Assembly (NCBI GenBank): GCA_022446905.1
Contig: JAKVBT010000005.1
Location: 48,898 to 96,453, forward strand
Reading direction: 5' to 3'
DNA: 47,556 nucleotides
From: Phycisphaerales bacterium
GTDB taxonomy: Bacteria > Planctomycetota > Phycisphaerae > Phycisphaerales > SM1A02
Positions within the stretch are counted from its first letter, which is position 1. Each line of letters opens with the position of its first letter. The position numbers were made by a program, and so were the translations under genes. The notes below the pieces were generated by a model. It saw only the letters and a program-made list of their open reading frames with translations. It ran no database searches and was not told the origin of the DNA. Below are positions 2,922-46,658 of the stretch, piece by piece.

Positions 2922-5900
2922 ATGGGTATTCCCGTCATTTCATCGTTGGCTCGTAAGGCCTTCGGAACTCGAAACGAACGACTCGTCAAGCGCTATCTTG
3001 GCATCGTCGATCAGGTCTCTGTCCATGAATCCGAGATGCGAGCTCTGGATGACTCGGCGCTGCTAGCCAAGACTCCTGAGTTTAAGGATCGGATCAAAAA
3101 TGGTGAAGATGCTGAACGCATGATCCCCGAGGTCTTCGCCGTTGCTCGTGAGGCGATGGACCGCGCCGTGGGTATACGCAACATCTTCGATCCAAGTCAG
3201 GAGTTTGATCCTGCAGTGCTCCCGAGCGACGTTCGGGCTCTCTATGAGGAGACCCGCGCCAACATGGAAGCAGCTGAGTCACGTCGTCCAACTGAGGAAC
3301 TGCTTGGCAATGTCGACGTTGTACCCGCTTGGCAGTGGATGGATATACCACTGCCGATTTACGAAGCAGTGCGAACGATTTGGCCTGAATCGCGGCCGCC
3401 ATTCCGTGCCCGACCGTTTGATGTGCAGATCATTGGTGGCATGGTGCTCTACGAAGGGCGCATCGCAGAGATGAAGACTGGTGAGGGAAAGACCATTGTT
3501 GCGCCGCTGGCGTGCTATTTGTCTGCAATTCAGTCAAGCCAGGTGCATGTGGTCACAGTCAATGACTATCTCGTTCAGCGTGACCGTGACTGGACATTCC
3601 CATTCTTCCGAGCAGTTGGACTGACAGTCGGAGCGATTCACCCACATCATATGCAGCCACCGCAACTCAAACAGATCATGTACCACTGTGACGTTGTCTA
3701 TGGGACGACCAGTGAGTTCGGCTTCGACTATCTGCGTGACAACATGAAGATGTCTGTTGCTGAACAGGTTCAGAGGCAGCGCAGCGTGGCGATTGTTGAC
3801 GAGGTCGATTCCACATTAATTGACGAGGCGCGAACGCCGCTGATCATTAGTGGTCCCGCTCATGAATCGGAGCCTCGATACGAATTAGCGGATCGACTGG
3901 CAATGCACTTATTGAATAAGCAGGTTGATTGGAATGCAGCCGATGAGTCAGTGCAGAAGTGCCTTGTAGACATCTCATCACTTGAAGGCGACATTCGAAA
4001 TGCTCGGGATAAAGATCGCATTCCTGCGCTCAAAGATCAGATGGAAGCGTGCAAGTCAAAGTTGCCAGATCTAGAAGCTGCCCGAGATCGGCACACCCAG
4101 TACTACGAAGTTGAGTTGGACAAAATGCGTGCGACGCTGACTCACGACGGGATTTCCGAGGCCCAGAAGGAGTCTGGCCTTGGGTCCTTTTATGTGGGGA
4201 AGAACATTGATATGCCACACCTGCTTGAGCAGGCCATTCGGTCGCACACGGTGTATCAGCGTGACCGGGATTACATCGTCGCCCCTGATGATCAGGGGCA
4301 GCTCAGCGTAGTAATTGTTGATCAGAACACCGGCCGCAAGATGGTTGGTCGTCAGTGGTCGAACGGTTTGCATCAAGCAGTGGAGGCCAAGGAGCGTGTC
4401 CCGATTAAGCAGGAAACGCAGACGATGGCCACCATCACCATCCAGAATTTTTTCAAGCAGTACGACAAACTCGCGGGGATGACTGGTACGGCAGACACGG
4501 AAGCGACGGAGTTCTACGAGATCTACGGACTCGATGTGGTTGTCATTCCAACCAACGTCCCCGTTGTCCGTGGCGATTTTGATGACGTTGTCTTCATGTC
4601 TGAAAAGGACAAGGTTGCCGCGATTATTGATGAGGTGGCGCACTTCCATGACATCGGCCAGCCGGTATTGGTTGGTACCACCAGCGTCGACAATTCCAAG
4701 ATGCTTTCTGAGCGACTCACCAAGCAGTATGGCATCAAGCATGAAGTGCTTAATGCCGAGCAGCATGAGCGAGAATCGGAAATTGTGAAGAATGCTGGTG
4801 AACTCGGGGCTGTCATGATCGCCACGAATATGGCTGGTCGTGGTACTGACATTAAACTTCAGCAGTTCGATCGCGATGACCTTATTAATCATTGGAAACG
4901 ACGTGATGTCTGTCCAAAGGATGTCACATCAGACATGCCTGATGAAGCGATCGTGGCGAAGTGCATGCGGCACACTGCGCCACGTATCGTCGGTCTTCCG
5001 CGTGACAAGGTGGCTGCGATGTCTGATACCGAAGTGTCACGTGTATTGCGGGAGTTCTGGTATGTCGAGCATTGTCAAGGAAGCGATTCCAAGGCATCGT
5101 CTTTGTCAGATGACCAGCTCGACGCTGCGATCGAGGCCAGTGGGGCGTGTCCTATGCAAGGGCTGAAGATGATCGGCGACGCGGAGGCCATCGGTGGTCT
5201 GCATGTGATTGGCACTGAACGACATGAGTCGCGGCGGGTTGACAATCAGTTGCGCGGCCGGAGTGGGCGACAGGGTGATAATGGCTCATCCAGGTTCTTT
5301 TTAAGCCTTGAAGACCCCTTGATGAAGATGTTTGCAGGTCCGACCACGCTCAAGCTTTTGAGTCGACTGGGTATGAAGGAAGGTGATGCGATTGTGCATC
5401 CGATGCTGAGTAAGGCCGTTGGGCGTGCGCAGCGAAAGGTCGAAGAGCGAAACTTTCTGATTCGAAAGAACATTCTTGAATACGACGAAGTCATGGATCT
5501 GCAGCGGCACGAGTTTTATGGAACTCGACAGCGCATTCTTGAGGGTCGTGATATCAAGTCTCTTATTTTTGAGTACCTCCAGCAGGCGGTTGATGATGCA
5601 GCGAGTCGATTTCTTGATCCAACCTACGCTTCGCTGTGCATTGCTGAGTGGTTGCGGGAACATCTTTCGGTCTCTGTCGAGCCGAGTCGCCTCAAGGTGC
5701 ATGATCGGGAAGATCTTCATGAGGGGATTCATCGCATGGCATATGCGGAGGCCTACTCAATTATCTCCGTATCGATCGGCGAGTTCCTTTCTGAGTCAAT
5801 AGACCTTGGTACCGGTGAGAGCATCGCGAGAGATGCCTTGTCAGATAACTATCAGGGGTTGGCTGAGTGGATGAACGGTCACTTCAATACCGAACTGTCC

Positions 5901-7049
5901 GCCGGTGATCTTGAGCATCTGGAAGGTGATGCGCTCATTGAATCTTTGAGTGAGTCTGCGCATGAGGCGATTAAGAAGGTTGATCTTGGGCCACTCGATG
6001 CATTCCTCCTTGAGGAATACCCTAAGCGCGAACTTGCGCAGTGGGTGTCGACACGATTTGGTATCGAGTTTGATGTCGACCTTCTGCTAGAAGTGCACGA
6101 ACAGCACGAAGTGGTCGAAGTCATCATGGATACGGCCAACTCCCTGTATGCGGAGCGTGAGGTGTGCTATCCGATTGACTTTGCCATCGACATGACCAAT
6201 GCTGGTATGCAACAGGATCCAACTCAGGCTTTGGCGCAGTTCTGCCGCTGGGCTAATTCCAGATATGAATTGGACTGGGAGCCAGAATCATTGCCAGCTA
6301 CGGATCCTCGCGAGATTCGCAAGCAACTGATTGAGATTGCTCGACAGTGGGATGACGAGAAAATCACAGACCGTGCGGAGCGGGCAGTTGCACAGGTTGG
6401 CCGTGAATTCGAAGCAATCGATACTTGGCTCAAGGAAACCTTGGGGGCAGCGTTATCGCCAGACGATCATGCCGAGGTAGAGGCTGATCCAGTAGCTGCT
6501 GTAGCGTCGCGGATTGCTCGTGCGATGCGGGCTGAGGTCAGTCATCTCGAACAGTGGATTCTGCTGCAAATCCTTGATGGTTGTTGGAAGGAACATCTCC
6601 ACCAGATGGATCAACTCCGAGAGTCGATTGGTTTGAGGAGTTTCAGTCAGCGAGATCCTCGTATCGAGTTCAAACGTGAAGGCGCGAACCTCTTTGAGGA
6701 GATGCTTGTTTCGATCCGTGACAAGGTGACTGATTTGGTCTTCAAGGCTCGAATGCAAGCGCAGCCACGCGTCGCGCCGCAGGCAGCTACGCCTGATGCG
6801 CAGATCGCAGCAGCGCCTGCAGTTGCACAGGGGTCTCAAGAGGCTCCTCCGGAGCCTCCTCGAGATGAAAATGCCGATGCCGTAGCTGCGGCAGCGAAGG
6901 CAGTCAGCGGGGGAGGGAAAGCGCCCCGGCGCTCCCGTCAAGCTTCGCGTCCAGTGCAACCTGCTGCTGGTGCTGCTGTGGTGGGTCGTAACGAGCCCTG
7001 TCCTTGCGGGTCAGGCAAGAAGTTCAAGAAGTGCTGCGGGGCCAAGTAA
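2922..7049 (+). CDS. secA: Protein translocase ATPase SecA, extended form
   Basis: SecA is the motor that drives preproteins through SecYEG. All core motifs are present: Walker A M-K-T-G-E-G-K-T near 184-191, the F-D-Y-L-R-D-N preprotein-crosslinking region, the V-D-E-V-D DEAD-type box, M-T-G-T-A, A-G-R-G-T-D near 638, and G-R-S-G-R-Q-G-D. The C-terminus is a SEC-C zinc motif (C-P-C-G-S-G ... C-C). At 1375 residues it is about 470 longer than the E. coli protein. Extra sequence lies in a coiled-coil insertion near 320-400, a Cys-containing insertion after the A-G-R-G-T-D box (about 645-740), and about 200 extra residues in the helical wing/scaffold region (between about 870 and 1205). A Pro/Ala-rich linker precedes SEC-C. 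AGGAG sits upstream of the ATG. The 3' end overlaps the convergent gene by 26 bases. Confidence 0.98.
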   Translation: MGIPVISSLARKAFGTRNERLVKRYLGIVDQVSVHESEMRALDDSALLAKTPEFKDRIKNGEDAERMIPEVFAVAREAMDRAVGIRNIFDPSQEFDPAVLPSDVRALYEETRANMEAAESRRPTEELLGNVDVVPAWQWMDIPLPIYEAVRTIWPESRPPFRARPFDVQIIGGMVLYEGRIAEMKTGEGKTIVAPLACYLSAIQSSQVHVVTVNDYLVQRDRDWTFPFFRAVGLTVGAIHPHHMQPPQLKQIMYHCDVVYGTTSEFGFDYLRDNMKMSVAEQVQRQRSVAIVDEVDSTLIDEARTPLIISGPAHESEPRYELADRLAMHLLNKQVDWNAADESVQKCLVDISSLEGDIRNARDKDRIPALKDQMEACKSKLPDLEAARDRHTQYYEVELDKMRATLTHDGISEAQKESGLGSFYVGKNIDMPHLLEQAIRSHTVYQRDRDYIVAPDDQGQLSVVIVDQNTGRKMVGRQWSNGLHQAVEAKERVPIKQETQTMATITIQNFFKQYDKLAGMTGTADTEATEFYEIYGLDVVVIPTNVPVVRGDFDDVVFMSEKDKVAAIIDEVAHFHDIGQPVLVGTTSVDNSKMLSERLTKQYGIKHEVLNAEQHERESEIVKNAGELGAVMIATNMAGRGTDIKLQQFDRDDLINHWKRRDVCPKDVTSDMPDEAIVAKCMRHTAPRIVGLPRDKVAAMSDTEVSRVLREFWYVEHCQGSDSKASSLSDDQLDAAIEASGACPMQGLKMIGDAEAIGGLHVIGTERHESRRVDNQLRGRSGRQGDNGSSRFFLSLEDPLMKMFAGPTTLKLLSRLGMKEGDAIVHPMLSKAVGRAQRKVEERNFLIRKNILEYDEVMDLQRHEFYGTRQRILEGRDIKSLIFEYLQQAVDDAASRFLDPTYASLCIAEWLREHLSVSVEPSRLKVHDREDLHEGIHRMAYAEAYSIISVSIGEFLSESIDLGTGESIARDALSDNYQGLAEWMNGHFNTELSAGDLEHLEGDALIESLSESAHEAIKKVDLGPLDAFLLEEYPKRELAQWVSTRFGIEFDVDLLLEVHEQHEVVEVIMDTANSLYAEREVCYPIDFAIDMTNAGMQQDPTQALAQFCRWANSRYELDWEPESLPATDPREIRKQLIEIARQWDDEKITDRAERAVAQVGREFEAIDTWLKETLGAALSPDDHAEVEADPVAAVASRIARAMRAEVSHLEQWILLQILDGCWKEHLHQMDQLRESIGLRSFSQRDPRIEFKREGANLFEEMLVSIRDKVTDLVFKARMQAQPRVAPQAATPDAQIAAAPAVAQGSQEAPPEPPRDENADAVAAAAKAVSGGGKAPRRSRQASRPVQPAAGAAVVGRNEPCPCGSGKKFKKCCGAK

Positions 7050-11401: not shown

Positions 11402-14400
11402 TTATGGTGATTGTTGGAGTCGTTGCAGTGCTTGTCGTGCCTGCACAAATCCTGGTCGGATCTGAATAGCTCGAGTCAATGCCCCAATGGCGTTGTCGCG
11501 CTGACCTGTACGTGCGTAGACCGTACCGAGGTGATACCACCCCAGTGCGAATTGTGGCTCAGCCTGAACCGCTGCTTGCAGGCGCTGGATCGCAACATCG
11601 TTGGCGCCAGTTGCGGCCAGGGCATAGCCCGAGGCGGCCAGTGTGCGTGCATGGCCGGGATTCAGTGCTACTGCTGCTTCGAGTTGTCTGATGGCTTGGT
11701 CGAAACGTTTAAGTTTGACTAGAAGGTTGCCGGCTTGAAATCGCGCGTTGTGTTGTTCTGGCGTCAAGTGGACTGCTTGCAAGGCGGCTTCAAGAGCTTC
11801 TTCATCGTGTCCACTTTCCTTAGCTGCTGTAGCGTAGCGCAAAAGCCAGTGACTGCGTATTGGACCTTCGAATGAACTGCTGAAGGCAGTGTCTCGGGGT
11901 ACGGCTACTGCTCTTCGGTAAAGCCTCAGTGCTTCTTCGGGCCGATCAGCATGTCCATGCCACTGCGCCAGTTGGAAGAGCGAGGGTGCGTGTAGTGGGT
12001 GCTCATCAATGATCTGCATCCACACCGCTGCCGCTTGTTCCTTCTGGCCGGCCAGATACATGGCCCAAGCGTGCTGTGTGCGCAACTCTAGGTGATCTGG
12101 GTCATGTGTAATCGATTCGTTGAGATGATTCAGTGCGAGCGTCACTCCCGCATCTGTCCGCTGGTTGGGCATCAATAGGAGCGTTGCTAGTGCCACTCGC
12201 GCATCCACGTTGGTGGGATCGACTTCGATGGCGCGGTTGAGCAGTTCGGTGGCGCGATCCAATCGCCCGGCGATGAAGTGGATTTGCGCTGCAACGACCA
12301 GATTGGCTGGCGAAAGAGACTCATTCTGAACAGCATCAAGCCATGGGTCCAGAGGCTGCAAGCCCATGTCCATAGCGGGTGCAGGAAGTGCTGTCCGGCC
12401 ATCAACTCGAGCACGGGCGAGTGTGAGCAACCCTGCTGCTGGCGCAATGTCGCGTCCTTCGAGCAAATCAATGACTTGTTGCCATTTGCCGGCATCTGCA
12501 GCAATCTGAGCCAGGCCCATCGCGGCCATCGGATGGTCTTGGGCGCGTCGCCAGGCTTGTTCAGCGGCGAAGACATTGCCTTGCCCTGCGTAGAGTTCCC
12601 CTAGACGGATGTGTATCGGAGCGTAGTTGGCGTCAAGTTCGGCGGCCATCTGAAGATAGGCCGTTGCAGATTGACTGTCGCCAATGACCGTGGCGAGCAA
12701 TCCGCGGTAGTAGGGCCATTTCGGATTGGTAGGTTCATCCTCACTCGCTTCGGCATAGGCAGCGTTTGCAAGTTCCGAAAGATCATTAGCGTGGAGAATC
12801 ATTCCACGTTGTCCAGCGTTGGATGCCAAAGCGAGTGCAGACTCCACCGCCGGTGATATCGCTCGGATTGCTGTTTGGTTGAATTCCCCCGCACTTGGGC
12901 TCGTTCTAAAGTAGGTAATGGGCGCGATGCGATCAAATGGTGCATACAAACCCATGCCGCCAGCCACGATGTCTGGCCAGCCATCATCATCAACATCGCC
13001 CACAGCGCACGTCACCAGATGCGTCGGCGTTTCTGCAAGGTCTTGGCTGAGGAATGACCCGTCTTCCTGCTGCGACCACCAACGGACACTCGGGGTGCCA
13101 GGAACGTTCCAGTCAGCAAACTCGCTGACAGCAACAATGTCGGCATCGCCATCTGCATCTAGGTCTGCAATTGTCGGTCCATAGGCGCCGTCAAAGTGTC
13201 CAAGTCGATGAAATTGGAATTGGTACTGGCCCAGATTCTCCAGCCACTGCACACCGTGTGTGGGCAGCGGGCGGTAGCCAACAGACACGAATGCGTCGCC
13301 ATTGGCCCAAGCGATATCCATGTCTCCATCGCCGTCGATGTCTCCGACGTCGATGCCACTGCTGGAAAAGTCAGCGTCAGCGACATCGTGCAATACCAGC
13401 GGTGTGAAGTGGCCGCGTCCATCGTTGATAAAGGCCTGAACCGTTTCCCACTCTTGAGAGAACAGAGCAACAATGTCGAGATCACCGTCCTGATCGATAT
13501 CGACGATCGGACTGTGGATGGCGCCAGAGCGGTCCATCAAGTGATGCATCTCAAATGTGCCATCCTCGAGTTGCTCCATCCACTGCACCGCACCATGCAC
13601 ATACCCAAACTGGGCAAGGGCAAGATCAAGATCTCCGTCTCCATCGAGATCGCCTGGCTGCACATCTGTGACTCGATGTGTTCCTTGGACCAACGATTTC
13701 GGCGTGAATTGGTCTTCGCCGTTGTTCTCAAGCAAGATGACCTGACCGCTCATGTCAGTAGATGGCAGCATGACGCCCATGTCGGCCACCAAGACATCGA
13801 TATCGCCATCGGCATCGATGTCCGCCAGTTCAGCATGCACCGGCGCGCCGATATCAGATGCGATGATCGCACGCGTGAACCGGCCATCGGGCATTTGGCG
13901 ATCCCAGAGCACAGCATGTGCGCCAACATCACATGTGACAATGTCCAGCATCCCGTCCTGATTGAGATCATCAAGTTCGACATGGGCGATGATCGGGGGG
14001 TCATCTGCACGTGCTTCTGGTCCAATCGTTGAAGCTTGCAGCGACAAGGGGATGAAGCCAGATTGGCTTCGCCCAACTTGGGTCGTCGAGGAGAACGTCT
14101 TTGGTGTGTTGGGGGTTGTCAGCTGTGGAATCCCTGAGGTGGGGAAGTTCTGCTGGATATATCGGCCGACATCCGCAGCTTGGGCGGGTGTGCCTCCAAG
14201 CGTTGACATGCTTGGCATGGCGGTGCCTGGCTTTCCGAAGCGCACCATGTGCAGGAATCGCCAAGGCTCTTGCTGTGCCACAGTGCCAAGCCAAGTCGGA
14301 TCCTCATGGCTGCCAAAGTTCAGCCAGCGGCCGTCCGGGCCATGGCACACCAAACACTGCATGCTGCCAGCGGTTCCTTGTTGAAAGCGATTCGCTCCAG

Positions 14401-14818
14401 CATCTGGATTACCAATGAAGTCGCCATCGGGCGTGATGTAGAGATTGGTATCCACCGTGCCGCGGCGCAGAAAAGCAATGAGATCCCGTAGGTCGTCATC
14501 AGTCAGACCATGGTCAGCGTAGCCGTGTCCGTTCGGTAGGTTGACGAATTTCAGCAGGTTGAATAGTTCAGCATCAGTGCGTGAGGTTGTATGGACTTCT
14601 TTGTAATCCCAGCCATGACACGTCGCGCAACGAAAGGTCTGGATGTCTTCCGTTGCAGTCTGTTCGTTGGATAACGCGTGCCTACCGGAGGGGGGTGCTA
14701 TGCCGATCTCTGTCCACCAGGTGTCCCAGAGACGCCCGCCGCGAATTGGATCGCCTTCCAAGATCCCTGCGATAGCGACCGATGACATCAGGCAAACAAG
14801 GATGAGCAGTCGTACCAA
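11402..14818 (-). CDS. Secreted dihaem-motif, FG-GAP propeller and TPR protein
   Basis: This 1138-residue protein has a signal peptide (ending near residue 17) and three parts. Residues 25-230 form a cytochrome c-like region with two C-x-x-C-H haem sites (Cys64-His68 and Cys155-His159) and a G-T-A-M-P candidate axial Met. Residues 275-670 carry about seven FG-GAP/VCBS calcium loops (D-x-D-x-D-G-x-x-D-I), enough for one beta-propeller. Residues 690-1138 are TPR-like helical repeats. The haem part suggests periplasmic electron transfer; the propeller and TPR parts suggest substrate or protein binding. The substrate is unknown. The order resembles planctomycete multi-domain cytochrome proteins, but I know no characterised protein with this exact layout. 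It is convergent with ggt and divergent from the FmdB-like gene. No oxidase or other cytochrome gene is adjacent. Confidence 0.93.
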   Translation of the reverse strand: MVRLLILVCLMSSVAIAGILEGDPIRGGRLWDTWWTEIGIAPPSGRHALSNEQTATEDIQTFRCATCHGWDYKEVHTTSRTDAELFNLLKFVNLPNGHGYADHGLTDDDLRDLIAFLRRGTVDTNLYITPDGDFIGNPDAGANRFQQGTAGSMQCLVCHGPDGRWLNFGSHEDPTWLGTVAQQEPWRFLHMVRFGKPGTAMPSMSTLGGTPAQAADVGRYIQQNFPTSGIPQLTTPNTPKTFSSTTQVGRSQSGFIPLSLQASTIGPEARADDPPIIAHVELDDLNQDGMLDIVTCDVGAHAVLWDRQMPDGRFTRAIIASDIGAPVHAELADIDADGDIDVLVADMGVMLPSTDMSGQVILLENNGEDQFTPKSLVQGTHRVTDVQPGDLDGDGDLDLALAQFGYVHGAVQWMEQLEDGTFEMHHLMDRSGAIHSPIVDIDQDGDLDIVALFSQEWETVQAFINDGRGHFTPLVLHDVADADFSSSGIDVGDIDGDGDMDIAWANGDAFVSVGYRPLPTHGVQWLENLGQYQFQFHRLGHFDGAYGPTIADLDADGDADIVAVSEFADWNVPGTPSVRWWSQQEDGSFLSQDLAETPTHLVTCAVGDVDDDGWPDIVAGGMGLYAPFDRIAPITYFRTSPSAGEFNQTAIRAISPAVESALALASNAGQRGMILHANDLSELANAAYAEASEDEPTNPKWPYYRGLLATVIGDSQSATAYLQMAAELDANYAPIHIRLGELYAGQGNVFAAEQAWRRAQDHPMAAMGLAQIAADAGKWQQVIDLLEGRDIAPAAGLLTLARARVDGRTALPAPAMDMGLQPLDPWLDAVQNESLSPANLVVAAQIHFIAGRLDRATELLNRAIEVDPTNVDARVALATLLLMPNQRTDAGVTLALNHLNESITHDPDHLELRTQHAWAMYLAGQKEQAAAVWMQIIDEHPLHAPSLFQLAQWHGHADRPEEALRLYRRAVAVPRDTAFSSSFEGPIRSHWLLRYATAAKESGHDEEALEAALQAVHLTPEQHNARFQAGNLLVKLKRFDQAIRQLEAAVALNPGHARTLAASGYALAATGANDVAIQRLQAAVQAEPQFALGWYHLGTVYARTGQRDNAIGALTRAIQIRPGFVQARQALQRLQQSP

Positions 14819-15189: not shown

Positions 15190-16401
15190 TCACTGGCACG
15201 CACCCCATCGACTTAGCAAATCCATAAGATCATCGACGTCAATGGTTCCATTGGTATCGCTGTCTCCTTGGCAGGTGCCAAGGAGTGCATCGATGGCCTC
15301 TCGGTCAGCAATGTCTACAGTGCCATCCTCGTTGACATCAGCCGTATGCAGGTTGGTTGACTGAGGTGTGTAGGTCACGGTGTCGACGACCATTTTGAGA
15401 CTTTCCCCAGGAGCACCGAAAGTGCCTGCCCAACTTGGACACCAAGGGCCAATGAAGAGTGGTGCGGGCATCGAGCTATCAGGCACAGTGGGTTTCATTT
15501 GTCCCGGGGTGTAGTGCATGAACTCATAGGCGTCAGATTCGATGTAGCTCGACGTCCCAGAGTCCCAAGCGTACGCCTTTCCCTGAGTGCGAGTCTGGCC
15601 GCCAATGGTCTCGGGCGGGAATGGGGATGAGGTATTGAAGAATCGACGTTCCATGTAGTAGCCGATCGGATACCCCCCGGTCTTGATGGAGTCGTCGTAG
15701 AACTGAATCTTGTCGTCGTAAATGATGAACGCGAGGATGAAACTCTCTTGTTCTTGTCCATCGCCAAACCAATACTCGACTCGTCTGGTGTCGCCGCGAT
15801 CGCCTCCGCACCATTTGATCCGATAGGTCCGCATGATTTCCTGTGAAAGATCAAGATTGTGACGCGTGACATCCTGCCAGGCAGTGGCATATCGATATTC
15901 ACTATTCGGATTGTGGTTGTACACGGTAAATCTTGCCACCCGAGCGCTCGGCTCAGACGCCGCTTGAGCCTCTGGATACCCCGGACATGTGTCATTCGCG
16001 ACGATGAGTGAGCCTGGCTGCTGATCGCTCGCTGATTGGTGTGATGGCACCGAAGTTAGTTCTAGGTCAATCTCAGAATAGTAACTCTCAGCCGCGTAGG
16101 TCCAGACACATGAGGCTACGCCAGGCGCTGCAATGATCTTAGCCCGGACATCAAACTGACCTGGTCCGAGGGGCATCGTGGTGCTCATGATGCCGCCAAC
16201 GGCATCAGATGTCACAGTTAGTTCGACCTGTTGGGCAGCGGAATTCCAATGCACATTGGCAGCGCTCCACCGACCAGAATGATCTTGCTTTATCCAATCA
16301 GATGCAAAAGGATCTGTATCAAAATTCCAGGTTGTGCTTGAAGCCAACGACGATGTGCTCAGGGAGGCTATCAGTCCATAGATTGGCCATGCATGCTTCA
16401 T
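15190..16401 (-). CDS. Secreted GH16-like glycoside hydrolase with dockerin-like tail
   Basis: The 403-residue product (start ATG 16401) has an N-terminal signal peptide and a jelly-roll-like domain. This contains Y-Y-S-E-I-D-L-E, which fits the GH16 catalytic motif E-x-D-x-E (Glu110, Asp112, Glu114 in this numbering). GH16 enzymes cleave beta-glucans and marine galactans such as agar or carrageenan; the substrate is not determined here. The last 50 residues form two calcium-loop-like repeats (D-V-N-E-D-G and D-T-N-G-T-I-D) ending W-G-A-C-Q, a dockerin-like tail. The start overlaps the stop of the upstream gene as ATGA, so translation is coupled. A TTG six bases further upstream is an alternative start. 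GH16 assignment rests on the motif and the sandwich-like pattern. Confidence 0.8.
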   Translation of the reverse strand: MKHAWPIYGLIASLSTSSLASSTTWNFDTDPFASDWIKQDHSGRWSAANVHWNSAAQQVELTVTSDAVGGIMSTTMPLGPGQFDVRAKIIAAPGVASCVWTYAAESYYSEIDLELTSVPSHQSASDQQPGSLIVANDTCPGYPEAQAASEPSARVARFTVYNHNPNSEYRYATAWQDVTRHNLDLSQEIMRTYRIKWCGGDRGDTRRVEYWFGDGQEQESFILAFIIYDDKIQFYDDSIKTGGYPIGYYMERRFFNTSSPFPPETIGGQTRTQGKAYAWDSGTSSYIESDAYEFMHYTPGQMKPTVPDSSMPAPLFIGPWCPSWAGTFGAPGESLKMVVDTVTYTPQSTNLHTADVNEDGTVDIADREAIDALLGTCQGDSDTNGTIDVDDLMDLLSRWGACQ

Positions 16402-17642
16402 TGACAAGGGCCCCAGGATTGAAGCATGTGCATGAGATCTTCAATATCGATCATCCCATCCGTATTGGAGTCATGAGCACAACTTGAAATCGCGTCATAC
16501 ATGATGTCTAGATCGGCAGCATTTACGACACCATCATGATTGAGATCAGGGGTGTTTTGCGCCAGTTGCGGTATGCACTTGGATTGATCACCGCAGGCGC
16601 CGCTGGAGGAGCATGCGCCACCCCCTGTGATTTGCACATTGTCTCGGAAGCAGCTGAGCCACTGATAACTGTGCAAAATGAAAGCTCCATAGGGGTGGAA
16701 TTTTTGCTGCTGAGCGCTGGACAACATGTCCCATCCCTCTTGGATGGCCTCATTGAGAAAGTTACGTCGGTAGCTTTCTGGATCAGTCGAATGTGGGTGG
16801 TTGTAGATCCCCGTTGTTCCAAACGAGATCTTCCAGCAGTTTGCTCCAATGTCATCACCTGTGGGGTCAAGTTCAAGGGCGATTGCGCAGTGTTTTCCAG
16901 ATGGTGTGTTGGTGGCGAGCTGAAGTCCCCATTTCATGAATCCATCAGCGCATGGCGCGGTATCTGTTCCAGTACATGGTGTTGTAAAGCAAGGAAGGTT
17001 GCGATACGCCATGACAATGAGTGTGTCAGCGTTGGCCCACGCCTGAGACCAAAGCTGATTGGCCTCTAGGTCATCTTGGACGCTCATTGGGACAAAAGCG
17101 GAGAGTGTTGCCTTCACTTTGGGCGACCCCGCATTATGCGTGTCTAAGAGCGCTCGTACTTGAGACAACATGGATATCCACTGTTGCGTGGTCGTGCCAC
17201 CCTTTGGTTCAACATCAAGGTTGACATCGATTGTGGGGCTTCCGTTGATGACATTGGTGCTCAGTGTGGCATTGCAATTATCGAGGTATGTCAGGATGAC
17301 CGTGACATTCTGGTTGACGTCAGTGGTGCTGCCATTCCAGTCCGTGTCGCCATAATTCAGTGAGAGGTGAACTCCAGCATCGTCCATTGCTTGCACAAAG
17401 CTGTCTGCATGGGCGTAGTTGGCCCCGCCCTGAATCGTGTCGGCGATTTCCTGTACGACCCAGCCTCCGGCGATTGAAGGTGATTTGGATGAGTTTACAA
17501 ACGACACCATGGTCGCTCGATCGCTGTCATTCATGATCGGATACGTCACCCAGTTCATCATGCCAATGGGTGGTGCGCTGATTGCCATAGCGCTCAAGCC
17601 AAAGGTGGCCATGGTGAGGCACGCTGTAACTCGAATATTCAT
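16398..17642 (-). CDS. Secreted TIM-barrel hydrolase-like protein with dockerin-like tail
   Basis: The 414-residue product starts at ATG 17642, preceded by AGGAGA and followed by a good signal peptide; the open frame extends upstream to 17780 without support. The strand pattern suggests a TIM barrel. I-D-V-N-L-D-V-E-P (Asn141, Asp143, Glu145) resembles the D-x-D-x-E strand of GH18 with Asn in the first position, and A-D-T-L-I-V-M-A-Y resembles the later GH18 M-x-Y strand. This is a distant resemblance and the substrate is unknown. Several Cys pairs (C-F-T-T-P-C, C-S-S-S-G-A-C) suggest disulphides. The C-terminus is a dockerin-like tail ending W-G-P-C-Q. It is coupled to the GH16-like gene by an ATGA overlap, so the two enzymes are probably made together, perhaps against one polysaccharide. 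Confidence 0.75.
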   Translation of the reverse strand: MNIRVTACLTMATFGLSAMAISAPPIGMMNWVTYPIMNDSDRATMVSFVNSSKSPSIAGGWVVQEIADTIQGGANYAHADSFVQAMDDAGVHLSLNYGDTDWNGSTTDVNQNVTVILTYLDNCNATLSTNVINGSPTIDVNLDVEPKGGTTTQQWISMLSQVRALLDTHNAGSPKVKATLSAFVPMSVQDDLEANQLWSQAWANADTLIVMAYRNLPCFTTPCTGTDTAPCADGFMKWGLQLATNTPSGKHCAIALELDPTGDDIGANCWKISFGTTGIYNHPHSTDPESYRRNFLNEAIQEGWDMLSSAQQQKFHPYGAFILHSYQWLSCFRDNVQITGGGACSSSGACGDQSKCIPQLAQNTPDLNHDGVVNAADLDIMYDAISSCAHDSNTDGMIDIEDLMHMLQSWGPCQ

Positions 17643-17721
17643 GCTCACGGTATCTCTCCTTGGATAGGAGGATGGCAATCTTGGCTCTGAAAGGCAAGGT
17701 GCTTTGTGCAAAGCCGACTCG

Positions 17722-17756
17722 AAAAAAACGCGCTCCCGGCCAAGTAGCCGGGAGCG
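17722..17756 (-). terminator. Rho-independent terminator of rpsB-tsf
   Basis: On the minus strand a perfect 10-bp GC-rich stem (17747-17756 with 17731-17740, loop 17741-17746) is followed by C-G and a run of seven T. It starts 24 bases after the tsf stop, which is the classic intrinsic terminator arrangement. It also insulates the hydrolase pair downstream. Confidence 0.92.
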
Positions 17757-17780
17757 TCGTAAGGGGCTCTTTGGGATCAA

Positions 17781-42827: not shown

Positions 42828-45800
42828 TTGTTCGCCTTTGGTGTGGTATTGGCATCTTCGAGCACAGCTTGGGGGGATCCCGAGCGAGGCTCCAATGACT
42901 GCACAGCCCCAGGGTTGGGGGCCTGTTGCCTCAACGGTGATGTCTGCACCTGCCATACAGAACTCTTTTGCCAGATCTGGGGTGGGGTGTGGTATCCAGG
43001 CCAAGAGTGCGAGGATGTTGTCTGTGAGACGAACTGTGGTGGCAACTGCAGCCCAGGTGAAACCCTCGACTGCAACGGTCATTGCGTTCCTGTGAGTTGG
43101 ATAGGCGATGGCTATTGTGATGATGGCTCATACCAGCATGACACCAACACCATCTATCTTGATTGTGAGGAGTTTGGGTGGGACGGTGGTGATTGTCCTC
43201 AGGGTGACATCCCGCTTGATCCCGGCGCCTGCTGTCTTGGCGATCAGGCAAATTGTGAAGGCTTTTGCGAGGTGTTGTACTACGAGGACTGCATTGCAGG
43301 TGGCGGGGTGTTTCTCGGCGCGCGGACCTCATGTCTGGCCGCGACGTGTGAGTGCCCTCCGGGCTTGATTGCAGATTGCAACGGCAATTGTTTCCCGTTG
43401 TATTGGATGAACAATGACGATTGCGATGAGGGTGCGGGCTATCCGATCAATGGTCCGGATCACCACTCCTATTACGTCTCACTGGGCTGTCTGGGACTCG
43501 CCTGCGATGGCGGAGATTGCATCGGTTTGTGTTCTGGCGCCTGCTGTCTGGGTACGGACTGTGTGGCCTCATTGAATGTCATTGAGTGTGCAGACTCGGG
43601 TGGTGTATTCCTTGGCTCTGGATCTGAGTGTCTGGGTGTGCAGTGCAGTGACTATCTCAAGCCTGTAGTGCTGAGTGAAGAGATTGATTGGCAGACTGTC
43701 GGTTCGGGCGGAGGAACCTTTGGCGGTCATGTGGCCGCTGGGGACGGGGTATTCGGTGTTTCCCTGAGCCAAGCTGAGTCAGCCGGTAGTTTTTACCCCG
43801 GGGTTGACCTCTTCGATGAAAGTGGCGTCTTTGTGCAACGCCTACTGGGTTCGACGTCTTGGGACAGCATTCCCAAAATCGACATCGGGGGTGGTCGAAT
43901 TCTTATGGCCTACAACAACAAGATCGATGTGTACCGCTGGAATAGTGGTTACTCATTGGAGCAAACGCTTACCACTTCAGACATGTATATCCGCAGGGTG
44001 GCTGTCTCAGAGAGCCACATTATGCTGGCTGGGCACACATCCGGGGATTATGAGCCGATTGTCCAAGAGTGGGTTTTCAATGGCGTGTCATGGAGCATTG
44101 GCCAGGCCATCATGCCAGAAGATGGTGGCTTTATTGAAGACATGGACATCGACGGCGATGTGATGGCTCTAGCAATGTCCTATTACACCTATGTCTACGA
44201 ATTGGCCGGTGGATCTTGGGAGAAGGTTGAGCGGATCGAGACAGATGGTCAGGAGATTGATGTATCCGTCAGTGGGACGCGGATACTGGTCGGTGAGAGT
44301 GGGGGCACGACTTATGCTGGTGGTGAGACCTCTTCGGGGCAGGCCCGTTTGTATGCCAAGACCTTCGGGGTATGGGGTCAATTAGCAGCCTTGGTGCCAG
44401 TTGACAATCAGCCTGACGACGAGTTTGGTGTTGCTGTGTCGCTTGATGGTGATGTCGCGGCGGTCACAGCGACTGGGCACAGCGGAGCTGCTCTGCGTGG
44501 TGGTGCAACAGTCATCTTTGAACTGGTGGATGATTCTTGGGTACAGACTGCGAAGGTTTATGCGCGAGATTCGGTTGCCGAGATGGGATACGGCCTTGAT
44601 GTCGCGCTCGCCGGGCGGTCTGTGATAACCAGTTGGCGGCGGTACCAAGATTGGTTCACTTCTTACAGTGGCGCGCAGATGTGCGATCTGCCGCAGTCGA
44701 GTTGGGCGATACCCGAGGGTGGCGACTTTGATAATGACAACAATTGGGTGCCACAACCGCCGAATGCAGGGACAGCGCACATTGCACTTCCTGCCTCATT
44801 TGATGTGAATGCGAGTGGGCTGCTGTCTGTCGACACGTTGCGTATCGGCACGAGCAGGCCAAGGTTCAGAGGGGGCAGTGTGACGCTTGGATCCGGAGGA
44901 TCCGGATTCTTGCACATCGCTGGTTCGCAGTCCTTTACTGGTTCAATTGCATTTGCCAATCCTTCGACGGTTGATGGTGATGTCATGGTTGGTGAACCCA
45001 ATCGTCCCGGCCAGTTAGAGCTGGAAGCGGCGGGATCGCTGCAGGTCAGTGGTGACATGTTGATCGATCGTGATGCCGAACTTCGACTGCCGCTGATTGA
45101 GTCCGGCACACCTTTGCAGGTGAACGGGCAGATGACATTGGAAGGAACTCTCTCGGCGGCCCTGCCGGAAGGCAGTGATCCAGCAATTGGCACAACCTTC
45201 TGTCTGCTAGAGGCTGGATCAGCCACTGTCGGGCAGAAGTTCCCAGTGGTCGTATTGCCGGGTGTTGGTTCGAACAAGTACGTGGCGATTGAGTACGGCA
45301 CTGGGCTTCGTGGAGGATTGAAGATCATTGCCACGGTCGCTTCGACCGCTGATTTGGGTGATCTGGAAGACTCTGGAACCGATGTCGTGTCAGGTCGGGC
45401 AGTTGATATCGCAGTGGCAGACTTTGGCTCGGAAGACGGTGGGCCGGATGGGTTTGATGACATTGCTTTGGCCATCCCAGGTTCCACAGGCCACATCATG
45501 ATGCTTATCAGCGACGGTCTTGGAGGGATCTCATCGCAGGTCATGCTGAATGTCTGTGATGACCCGATTGGTCTGGCCACTGGCGATTTTGATGCTGATG
45601 GGAAGGCTGATCTGGTCTTTGTCTCTCCGTCACAGAACGCCGTGTACACCTTGGTCAATTCGGGCGCCGCGCCAAGTGAGATGGTGCTTTCGGTTGGGTC
45701 AACAACCTCAGATGGACCAGTTGATGTGGCCATCATTCGTTTGGCGGGCGATAACCAAGACGACATCATCGTGGCGTGCGCAGGCGATGGAGAAGTACTC

Positions 45801-46658
45801 TCCGACGGTAGCCTCTACGGTCAATTGGACATCTTCGAGCATGTTGGGGGTCTGCTTGGGCCGTTCGGACTTGATGGCTCGGTCCAGGTTCAAGGCAAGC
45901 CAGGTCAGGTCAAGCCGGGAAGTGTTGGTTCAGGGGGCAAAGGCAATCGACGGGCGGCTTCCACGCTCGGTGGCTCCAATGAACTGGTCGTCATTTCTGA
46001 AGACTCTTTTGGTGTCTGGAGTGAGGAGCAGCGACTCGATGTTGGAACTGACCCACACGATTTGGTGATGCAGGACCTTAATGCCGACGGTCTCGATGAT
46101 GTGCTGGTTGGTAATCGGGGTTCCAACACCATTTCAGTGATGATTGGTGCTTCTGATGACGCTCTGAATGACCAACAGATCTTTGAGGTTGGCCAGTCTC
46201 CGCAGTCGCTGACCGCATTGGATTACGACAATGATGGCGATCTCGACCTTGCGGTGCGTACGCTTGATGGCTTGGAGTCACTGGCCGCTGTCTCGGTCTA
46301 CCGCAATGATCTAGAGAGTGGCGATGCTGACCTGACGCTGTCGCTCGAGCAGACTTTGCACAGTGGTGAGGTCGTGCTCTTGCTTGGGGCAGGTGATTTG
46401 GACGGTGACACAGCAGATGATCTGGTTTCTGTGGTCGAAGCTAGTGGTGTGGCTGGCGTCGCTACTTCAATTCAGATTCGAAGTGTTGACGGTGCGCCGT
46501 GTCCTGGCGATGCCAACGGCGATCAGGTGGTTGATGTCAATGACATTTTGTTGGTCATCGGCGCATATGGCGGCCCAGACGGGGATGTCACCGGCGATGG
46601 GACCACTAATATTGACGACCTGCTGCTCTGCATCGGCGAGTTTGGGGCATGTGACTGA
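42828..46658 (+). CDS. Large secreted mosaic protein (Cys-rich modules, propeller repeats, dockerin-like tail)
   Basis: This 1276-residue protein (TTG 42828; translation may begin at ATC 42804) has a signal region ending near A-W-G. Residues 30-273 hold three copies of a G-A-C-C module alternating with two Notch-repeat-like segments (C-N-G-H-C ... G-D-G-Y-C-D ... W-D-G-G-D-C). Residues about 285-625 have repeated beta-strand units like an FG-GAP-type propeller. Near 635-670 is a G-G-D-F-D-N-D-N-N-W segment seen in planctomycete surface proteins. Residues 860-1205 carry further calcium-loop repeats (D-F-D-A-D-G, D-L-N-A-D-G, D-Y-D-N-D-G). The C-terminus is a dockerin-like pair (D-A-N-G-D-Q-V-V-D, D-V-T-G-D-G) ending F-G-A-C-D. 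No catalytic site is recognised; a surface or extracellular binding protein is likely. Confidence 0.9.
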   Translation: MFAFGVVLASSSTAWGDPERGSNDCTAPGLGACCLNGDVCTCHTELFCQIWGGVWYPGQECEDVVCETNCGGNCSPGETLDCNGHCVPVSWIGDGYCDDGSYQHDTNTIYLDCEEFGWDGGDCPQGDIPLDPGACCLGDQANCEGFCEVLYYEDCIAGGGVFLGARTSCLAATCECPPGLIADCNGNCFPLYWMNNDDCDEGAGYPINGPDHHSYYVSLGCLGLACDGGDCIGLCSGACCLGTDCVASLNVIECADSGGVFLGSGSECLGVQCSDYLKPVVLSEEIDWQTVGSGGGTFGGHVAAGDGVFGVSLSQAESAGSFYPGVDLFDESGVFVQRLLGSTSWDSIPKIDIGGGRILMAYNNKIDVYRWNSGYSLEQTLTTSDMYIRRVAVSESHIMLAGHTSGDYEPIVQEWVFNGVSWSIGQAIMPEDGGFIEDMDIDGDVMALAMSYYTYVYELAGGSWEKVERIETDGQEIDVSVSGTRILVGESGGTTYAGGETSSGQARLYAKTFGVWGQLAALVPVDNQPDDEFGVAVSLDGDVAAVTATGHSGAALRGGATVIFELVDDSWVQTAKVYARDSVAEMGYGLDVALAGRSVITSWRRYQDWFTSYSGAQMCDLPQSSWAIPEGGDFDNDNNWVPQPPNAGTAHIALPASFDVNASGLLSVDTLRIGTSRPRFRGGSVTLGSGGSGFLHIAGSQSFTGSIAFANPSTVDGDVMVGEPNRPGQLELEAAGSLQVSGDMLIDRDAELRLPLIESGTPLQVNGQMTLEGTLSAALPEGSDPAIGTTFCLLEAGSATVGQKFPVVVLPGVGSNKYVAIEYGTGLRGGLKIIATVASTADLGDLEDSGTDVVSGRAVDIAVADFGSEDGGPDGFDDIALAIPGSTGHIMMLISDGLGGISSQVMLNVCDDPIGLATGDFDADGKADLVFVSPSQNAVYTLVNSGAAPSEMVLSVGSTTSDGPVDVAIIRLAGDNQDDIIVACAGDGEVLSDGSLYGQLDIFEHVGGLLGPFGLDGSVQVQGKPGQVKPGSVGSGGKGNRRAASTLGGSNELVVISEDSFGVWSEEQRLDVGTDPHDLVMQDLNADGLDDVLVGNRGSNTISVMIGASDDALNDQQIFEVGQSPQSLTALDYDNDGDLDLAVRTLDGLESLAAVSVYRNDLESGDADLTLSLEQTLHSGEVVLLLGAGDLDGDTADDLVSVVEASGVAGVATSIQIRSVDGAPCPGDANGDQVVDVNDILLVIGAYGGPDGDVTGDGTTNIDDLLLCIGEFGACD
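42918..43025 (+). repeat. Cys-rich G-A-C-C module, copy 1
   Basis: Encodes 36 residues starting G-A-C-C-L and ending with a Cys, with the internal pattern C ... C ... G-G-V-W-Y-P-G-x-x-C. It is the first of three copies in the large secreted protein and directly precedes the first Notch-repeat-like segment. Confidence 0.75.
43224..43349 (+). repeat. Cys-rich G-A-C-C module, copy 2
   Basis: Encodes 42 residues starting G-A-C-C-L-G and containing G-G-G-V-F-L-G-x-x-x-x-C with a final Cys. It is slightly longer than copies 1 and 3, with two added Cys in the middle (C-E-G-F-C). Confidence 0.75.
43536..43646 (+). repeat. Cys-rich G-A-C-C module, copy 3
   Basis: Encodes 37 residues starting G-A-C-C-L-G and ending G-V-F-L-G-S-G-S-E-C-L-G-V-Q-C. 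It follows the second Notch-repeat-like segment and ends the Cys-rich part of the protein; the propeller-like region follows. Confidence 0.75.

Follow-up and report, generated by a model that had tools for sequence, protein, structure and literature searches.

Cytochrome c is joined to a propeller in cytochrome cd1 nitrite reductase and in PQQ dehydrogenases with cytochrome domains, which serve here as systems that work alike. Mono-haem FG-GAP proteins of Planctomycetota, Bacteroidota and Acidobacteriota carry an FG-GAP core homologous to that of the protein described below and share with it an N-terminal CxxCH head and a signal or anchor. To our knowledge, a haem head and a TPR arm are not part of CRTAC1, and the role of FG-GAP propellers in planctomycetes is mostly unknown. 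Among the titles and abstract beginnings listed in searches of the open literature, none describes a dihaem-propeller-TPR order. FG-GAP (CRTAC1) genes adjoining hydrazine-synthase homologues, not a dihaem-propeller-TPR fusion, are described in one report (PMC12758564).

The window (the whole stretch of DNA analysed, 47,556 nucleotides from a Phycisphaerales bacterium) encodes one such protein, with the following features.

11402..14818, (-) strand: whole ORF, 1138 aa with a TTG start; signal peptide, dihaem head, FG-GAP propeller and TPR in this order
14765..14818, (-) strand: signal peptide, about residues 1-18; cleavage after AIA likely and no lipobox, both by eye
14141..14764, (-) strand: dihaem module, about residues 19-226; CATCH at 64-68 and CLVCH at 155-159, candidate distal ligands His98 and Met201
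12896..14047, (-) strand: FG-GAP propeller core, about residues 258-641; Pfam FG-GAP_3, strands, seven calcium-type loops and similarity to CRTAC1 (9etn_A)
11405..12853, (-) strand: TPR superhelix, about residues 656-1138; Pfam TPR models, 28 predicted helices and a match to 8chy

Exactly two CxxCH motifs, the haem attachment motif of class I c-type cytochromes, were counted in the protein (residue shuffles average 0.00105 per protein). Pfam Cytochrom_C (best stretch 63-118, 25.9 bits) and Cytochrome_CBB3 (138-221, 31.8 bits) were matched modestly, against whole-protein cut-offs of 21.3 and 27, respectively. FG-GAP_3 (PF13517) was matched at E 2e-37 with 128 bits against a cut-off of 26.9, placing the protein among FG-GAP propellers, and the calcium-loop motif D-x-[DN]-x-[DN]-G-x-x-D occurs seven times, beginning at residues 284, 333, 390, 440, 493, 552 and 608. 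Many Pfam TPR models were matched, with best stretches at about 831-1124. The whole-chain AlphaFold2 model (20-row alignment, mean pLDDT 76.9) contains a helix at residues 2-20 in the signal peptide region, strands over 258-641 and 28 helices over 656-1136. The head was poorly modelled within the whole chain, and its own 31-row alignment raised it to pLDDT 92. A fold search with the full-length model returned mainly TPR proteins, among them the consensus TPR 8chy (TMt 0.80). An internal TTG accounts for the Met with which row 1 of alignment A1 begins. The initial annotation had proposed one polypeptide with two CxxCH sites, about seven FG-GAP calcium loops and TPR helices in this order, and this was confirmed; the helices span about 480 residues (656-1136 in the AlphaFold2 model) instead of the 450 or so first estimated.

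For the head, 31 dihaem modules were aligned: seven from the genus of the window (g1), one from genome G028 of the same family and 23 from carriers in other families (L036 and L057-L061 were left out). Both CxxCH motifs and the residues equivalent to His98 and Met201 of the window protein were invariant in all 31. The spacing of the invariant His and Met suggests His/His ligation for haem 1 (His68, His98) and His/Met ligation for haem 2 (His159, Met201). With VIA-align, the haem-2 domain (model residues 114-211) was superposed on the NirS cytochrome with Z 9.2 and rmsd 2.7 over 83 aligned residues, and on cytochromes c6 with Z of about 8; as modelled, the second head domain has the fold of class I cytochromes c. 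Most structure matches cover the second domain alone, and for the first domain there is the Cytochrom_C stretch at 63-118. Foldseek matches to both domains together (6h5l_B, cytochrome c4) were loose, with TM of about 0.3 and rmsd near 14-15.

The dihaem profile was matched in 25 of 347 sampled genomes of the class, including that of the window. Outside g1, the module occurs as a stand-alone protein, in tandem, within multihaem proteins with MtrC-like domains, or behind a GSDH propeller. The last arrangement, behind a PQQ-type GSDH propeller, was present in three of the ten carriers scanned by Pfam (L046, L049 and L051, all from another family, f19) and is another combination of haem and propeller in one frame. 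The G028 protein that contains the module has ten CxxCH motifs, includes an MtrC-like domain and matches dockerin weakly. In 24 dihaem carrier loci (about 1.5 kb on each side; Pfam on ten), FG-GAP-type loops never exceeded two per frame.

An orthologue of the window protein was present in all eight congeners searched, and in seven it aligned over most of its length with 48-54% identity. Both haem motifs were retained in all six of the other intact N-termini, or seven of seven with the window copy. The G007 copy starts after the first haem motif owing to a contig end and was counted with the dihaem group, and the G004 copy is missing the head and most of the propeller for the same reason. On these counts a local or assembly-made fusion was rejected. 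The expectation that relatives would keep the same domain order was thus borne out across the genus, in which the haem part does not occur as a separate conserved gene. All g1 heads group together in a single clade (support 100/97), so the dihaem module was probably gained once.

Genus g19 has the core and TPR fused in a haem-free protein, with a lipobox (by eye) in all nine readable copies; the tenth, in G504, is a fragment. A separate haem gene was looked for in this genus and not found, with strong dihaem-profile matches in none of ten genomes. Weak partial matches were obtained in two of the ten, G430 (E 6.7e-5, about 2 kb from a COX1 gene) and G361 (E 7.8e-4), and the haem part seems to be absent from g19. 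The existence of this same propeller-TPR protein without haem could mean that the head was captured for its signal peptide and as a soluble leader, the haem being incidental and the protein working like its haem-free sister. A stretch of the head kept by other carriers is indeed missing in six of the seven g1 rows. However, the haem cysteines, proximal His and candidate distal ligands are kept in seven of seven, even though head identity to the window protein is just 42-51% in the other six, and a dead module would be expected to lose these residues. Such a passive capture is considered quite unlikely.

The ORF stands alone, with a gamma-glutamyltransferase gene converging on it. Upstream, a short divergent frame, FmdB-like by eye, separates it from two adjoining frames (window 15190-17780, (-) strand). 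Their GH16- and GH18-like matches are weak, reaching the curated cut-offs at best, and EF-hand or dockerin families are likewise matched weakly at their ends. No operon partner was found: in six congener stretches compared, the gene itself was the sole match to the window genes, so that no operon speaks to function. An upstream set with superoxide dismutase and a CrcB-like gene (by eye) is shared by G001, G003 and G005 and was not seen beside the window gene. Farther away in the window, a SecA homologue of 1375 aa (2922-7049, (+) strand) has about 300 residues between its P-loop match (to 821) and its best wing/scaffold match (from 1134), and another large frame of 1276 aa (42828-46658, (+) strand) has FG-GAP_3 matches. 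The small host genome has 62 FG-GAP_3 matches.

These surroundings bear on the initial proposal of an extracellular redox scaffold, taken here as a propeller that would bind a surface polymer, such as a polysaccharide, to or from which electrons would be moved by the haem head. It is consistent with the weak glycoside hydrolase-like and EF-hand/dockerin matches of the two upstream genes, and with the G028 protein, whose dihaem module is accompanied by an MtrC-like domain and a weak match to dockerin in a chain with ten CxxCH motifs. Against it, the neighbours that the gene has in the window were found with it in none of the six congener stretches, no carbohydrate-binding domain was among the best 25 of 30 Pfam families matched by the protein, and the relatives have lipid or transmembrane anchors (by eye). 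Export and a redox head are likely; the extracellular location was not upheld, as the sequence indicates export only and the protein may be periplasmic. No evidence was found for polymer binding, and the polymer-bound arrangement is regarded as improbable.

The propeller core was traced with a core profile in 392 sampled genomes of the phylum. Matches at E 1e-50 or better were obtained in 65 genomes, at 83 places or more (a lower bound, with a maximum of five candidates scored per genome); all 83 were read, and the 82 places other than that of the window were recounted with a single threshold. Three forms were distinguished. The window place, with a dihaem head and fused TPR, was one of the 83, and a dihaem module joined to a propeller-TPR protein was seen in g1 only in this sample. 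Mono-haem heads were present at 57 places. None of these 57 frames was matched by the dihaem profile, and no TPR frame lay directly downstream of any of them even at E 10, with 54 judgeable; the stretches of L314, L316 and L317 end within 170 bases. On a contig of Candidatus Anammoximicrobium (L097, 3745-19625), two mono-haem FG-GAP genes on opposite strands lie close to genes for a seven-CxxCH cytochrome, a cytochrome c-TPR protein and a PD40-TPR protein and to a DUF1559 gene.

The remaining 25 places were haem-free. A TPR frame overlapped or directly followed the core in 22 of them at E <1e-3, that is, in 20 at the initial thresholds and in L290 (E 3e-5) and L292 (E 6e-5) in addition; three had no downstream TPR frame or could not be judged. 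L261 has an overlapping TPR frame at E 7.6 only, and L321 is cut at its start. L279 (G679) was counted as haem-free and sits among mono-haem rows; its head reads CTSHH where its mono-haem relatives have CxxCH, and with the second haem cysteine lost it is, judged by motif, a putative natural single-cysteine or dead haem site. The haem-free relatives carry lipid or transmembrane anchors (by eye). Pairs of propeller and TPR frames were present in f51, f92 and f93, in genus g25 of the window's own family, and on one Pirellulaceae and one Verrucomicrobiota contig. In g25, core and TPR are two frames in G602, and the contig of G032 ends after the core. The TPR frame beside the core on the Verrucomicrobiota contig aligns to the window arm, and a DPWLD motif is common to both. 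Searching genome contigs with the whole window protein returned no relative; with the core alignment, 80 loci were obtained, of which 27 were read for architecture and eight were used in the tree.

The tree of the cores was built on 65 rows (one of the two L097 cores and 46 of the 83 phylum-sample stretches are not in it) and was midpoint-rooted for drawing only, the root being assumed. A haem-free TPR clade of 34 rows, including the g1 rows, was recovered with support 100/98 and lies among mono-haem rows. Fused core-TPR proteins form one clade of 17 rows (100/100), within which the eight g1 rows form one clade (100/100) with the haem-free G439 of g19 beside them (98/91). With the root as assumed, the tree shows that the haem-free propeller-TPR fusion came first and that the dihaem head was added on the g1 branch, replacing a lipid anchor. 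Haem state changes at least three times on the tree. A single origin of haem on the core, with all haem-bearing cores in one clade, was rejected (p-AU 3e-67), and haem seems to have been added to the propeller on two occasions, with unlike mono-haem and dihaem heads. The simplest order would be that a mono-haem head was lost as the TPR partner arrived, that core and TPR were then fused and that the dihaem head was gained in g1. Loss of haem before its regain is deduced from the mono-haem rows that branch around the haem-free clade, plus L101 and two rows flagged as long branches, L100 and L104. In a quick tree without these three, the least numbers of changes were the same and well-supported branches forced fewer for two labels. 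An independent-pairs test of haem versus TPR had only two pairs and thus no power, so the pattern is descriptive.

Several polar residues of the core outside the calcium loops are near-invariant, namely Arg382 (65/65), Glu458 (64/65), Asp508 (64/65), His521 (63/65) and Gln455 (62/65), suggesting that the cores share a ligand or active site regardless of the head they carry. Most of the clade to which the window protein belongs is haem-free, so a fused haem need not be present for the propeller to work. The fusion hints that the propeller takes part in electron transfer. In the propeller, no cofactor other than haem and no substrate or partner was identified. The host genome has one match to cytochrome c assembly (PF01578) and two to COX1, making haem attachment and an electron sink plausible. 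PF01578 was matched in G001, one of the two congeners tested, and had no match in the other, G003, although that genome is listed as 97% complete and its orthologue keeps both CxxCH motifs.

The reading we favour, tentatively and at a little under an even chance, is an exported redox adaptor or oxidoreductase. Such an adaptor would be exported and not membrane-anchored, its head would bind two c-haems and its TPR arm would dock a partner protein. The propeller, with its near-invariant Arg382, Gln455, Glu458, Asp508 and His521, would bind or oxidise a ligand, and the dihaem head would pass electrons between the ligand site and the aerobic respiratory chain. This adaptor was preferred over polymer binding and passive capture, and over a sensor, in which the head would respond to a small molecule or to redox state by changing what the TPR arm docks, with no net electron flow. 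For a sensor, TPR is a docking fold, the propeller is flanked by head and arm, and the candidate haem ligands are conserved; but six-coordinate sites, if the proposed ligands are right, favour electron transfer, and no signalling output domain was among the best 25 of 30 Pfam families. Sensing is held to be an unlikely role. Extending the redox adaptor, the core could be an uncharacterised periplasmic redox enzyme whose electron outlet was exchanged in evolution: a mono-haem head fused at most sampled places, a separate partner docked by TPR where haem is lacking and, in g1, a newly fused dihaem head alongside the retained TPR arm, with the same five residues as active or cofactor site; we hold this to be rather unlikely.

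Compared with known systems, the window core has its best PDB sequence match in the CRTAC1/integrin-alpha FG-GAP propellers (PDB 9etn, E 7.5e-9). The ASPIC/UnbV domain of CRTAC1 (PF07593) is absent from the 25 strongest of the 30 Pfam families matched by the window protein at E <=0.1, the remaining five being weaker than E 0.0086. Cytochrome cd1 and the PQQ dehydrogenases resemble it in the joining of cytochrome and propeller, and the NirS cytochrome resembles its haem-2 domain, but their propellers are of a different family, and no d1 or PQQ site was identified in the window protein. It does not belong with the MtrC-like outer-membrane multihaem cytochromes, having two CxxCH motifs only and no MtrC-like match among the best 25 of 30 Pfam families. 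The stand-alone, tandem, GSDH-fused and multihaem dihaem proteins (f19, f8, f15 and G028) have heads 30-47% identical to that of the window, with motifs and candidate distal ligands kept, but they have other or no partner domains. The mono-haem FG-GAP proteins have one CxxCH-x-x-P-x-P-like head unlike that of the window and no TPR fused or directly downstream (0/57, 54 judgeable); with its two motifs, its different head and a core nested in the haem-free TPR clade (100/98), the window protein falls outside that family. It belongs instead with the propeller-TPR pairs, its core lying in their clade and its TPR being fused. The g19 lipoproteins and the propeller and TPR pairs share its propeller clade and a related TPR, and differ in having no CxxCH and, by eye, a lipid or transmembrane anchor. 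The three-part order is new within our searches; what is widespread in these genomes is each simpler form by itself, the mono-haem FG-GAP protein, the dihaem module and the propeller-TPR pair. Two unlike heads connect this one propeller family with haem, and gene adjacency and fusion connect it with a TPR partner; this offers a concrete redox guess for the propeller and names a partner for it.
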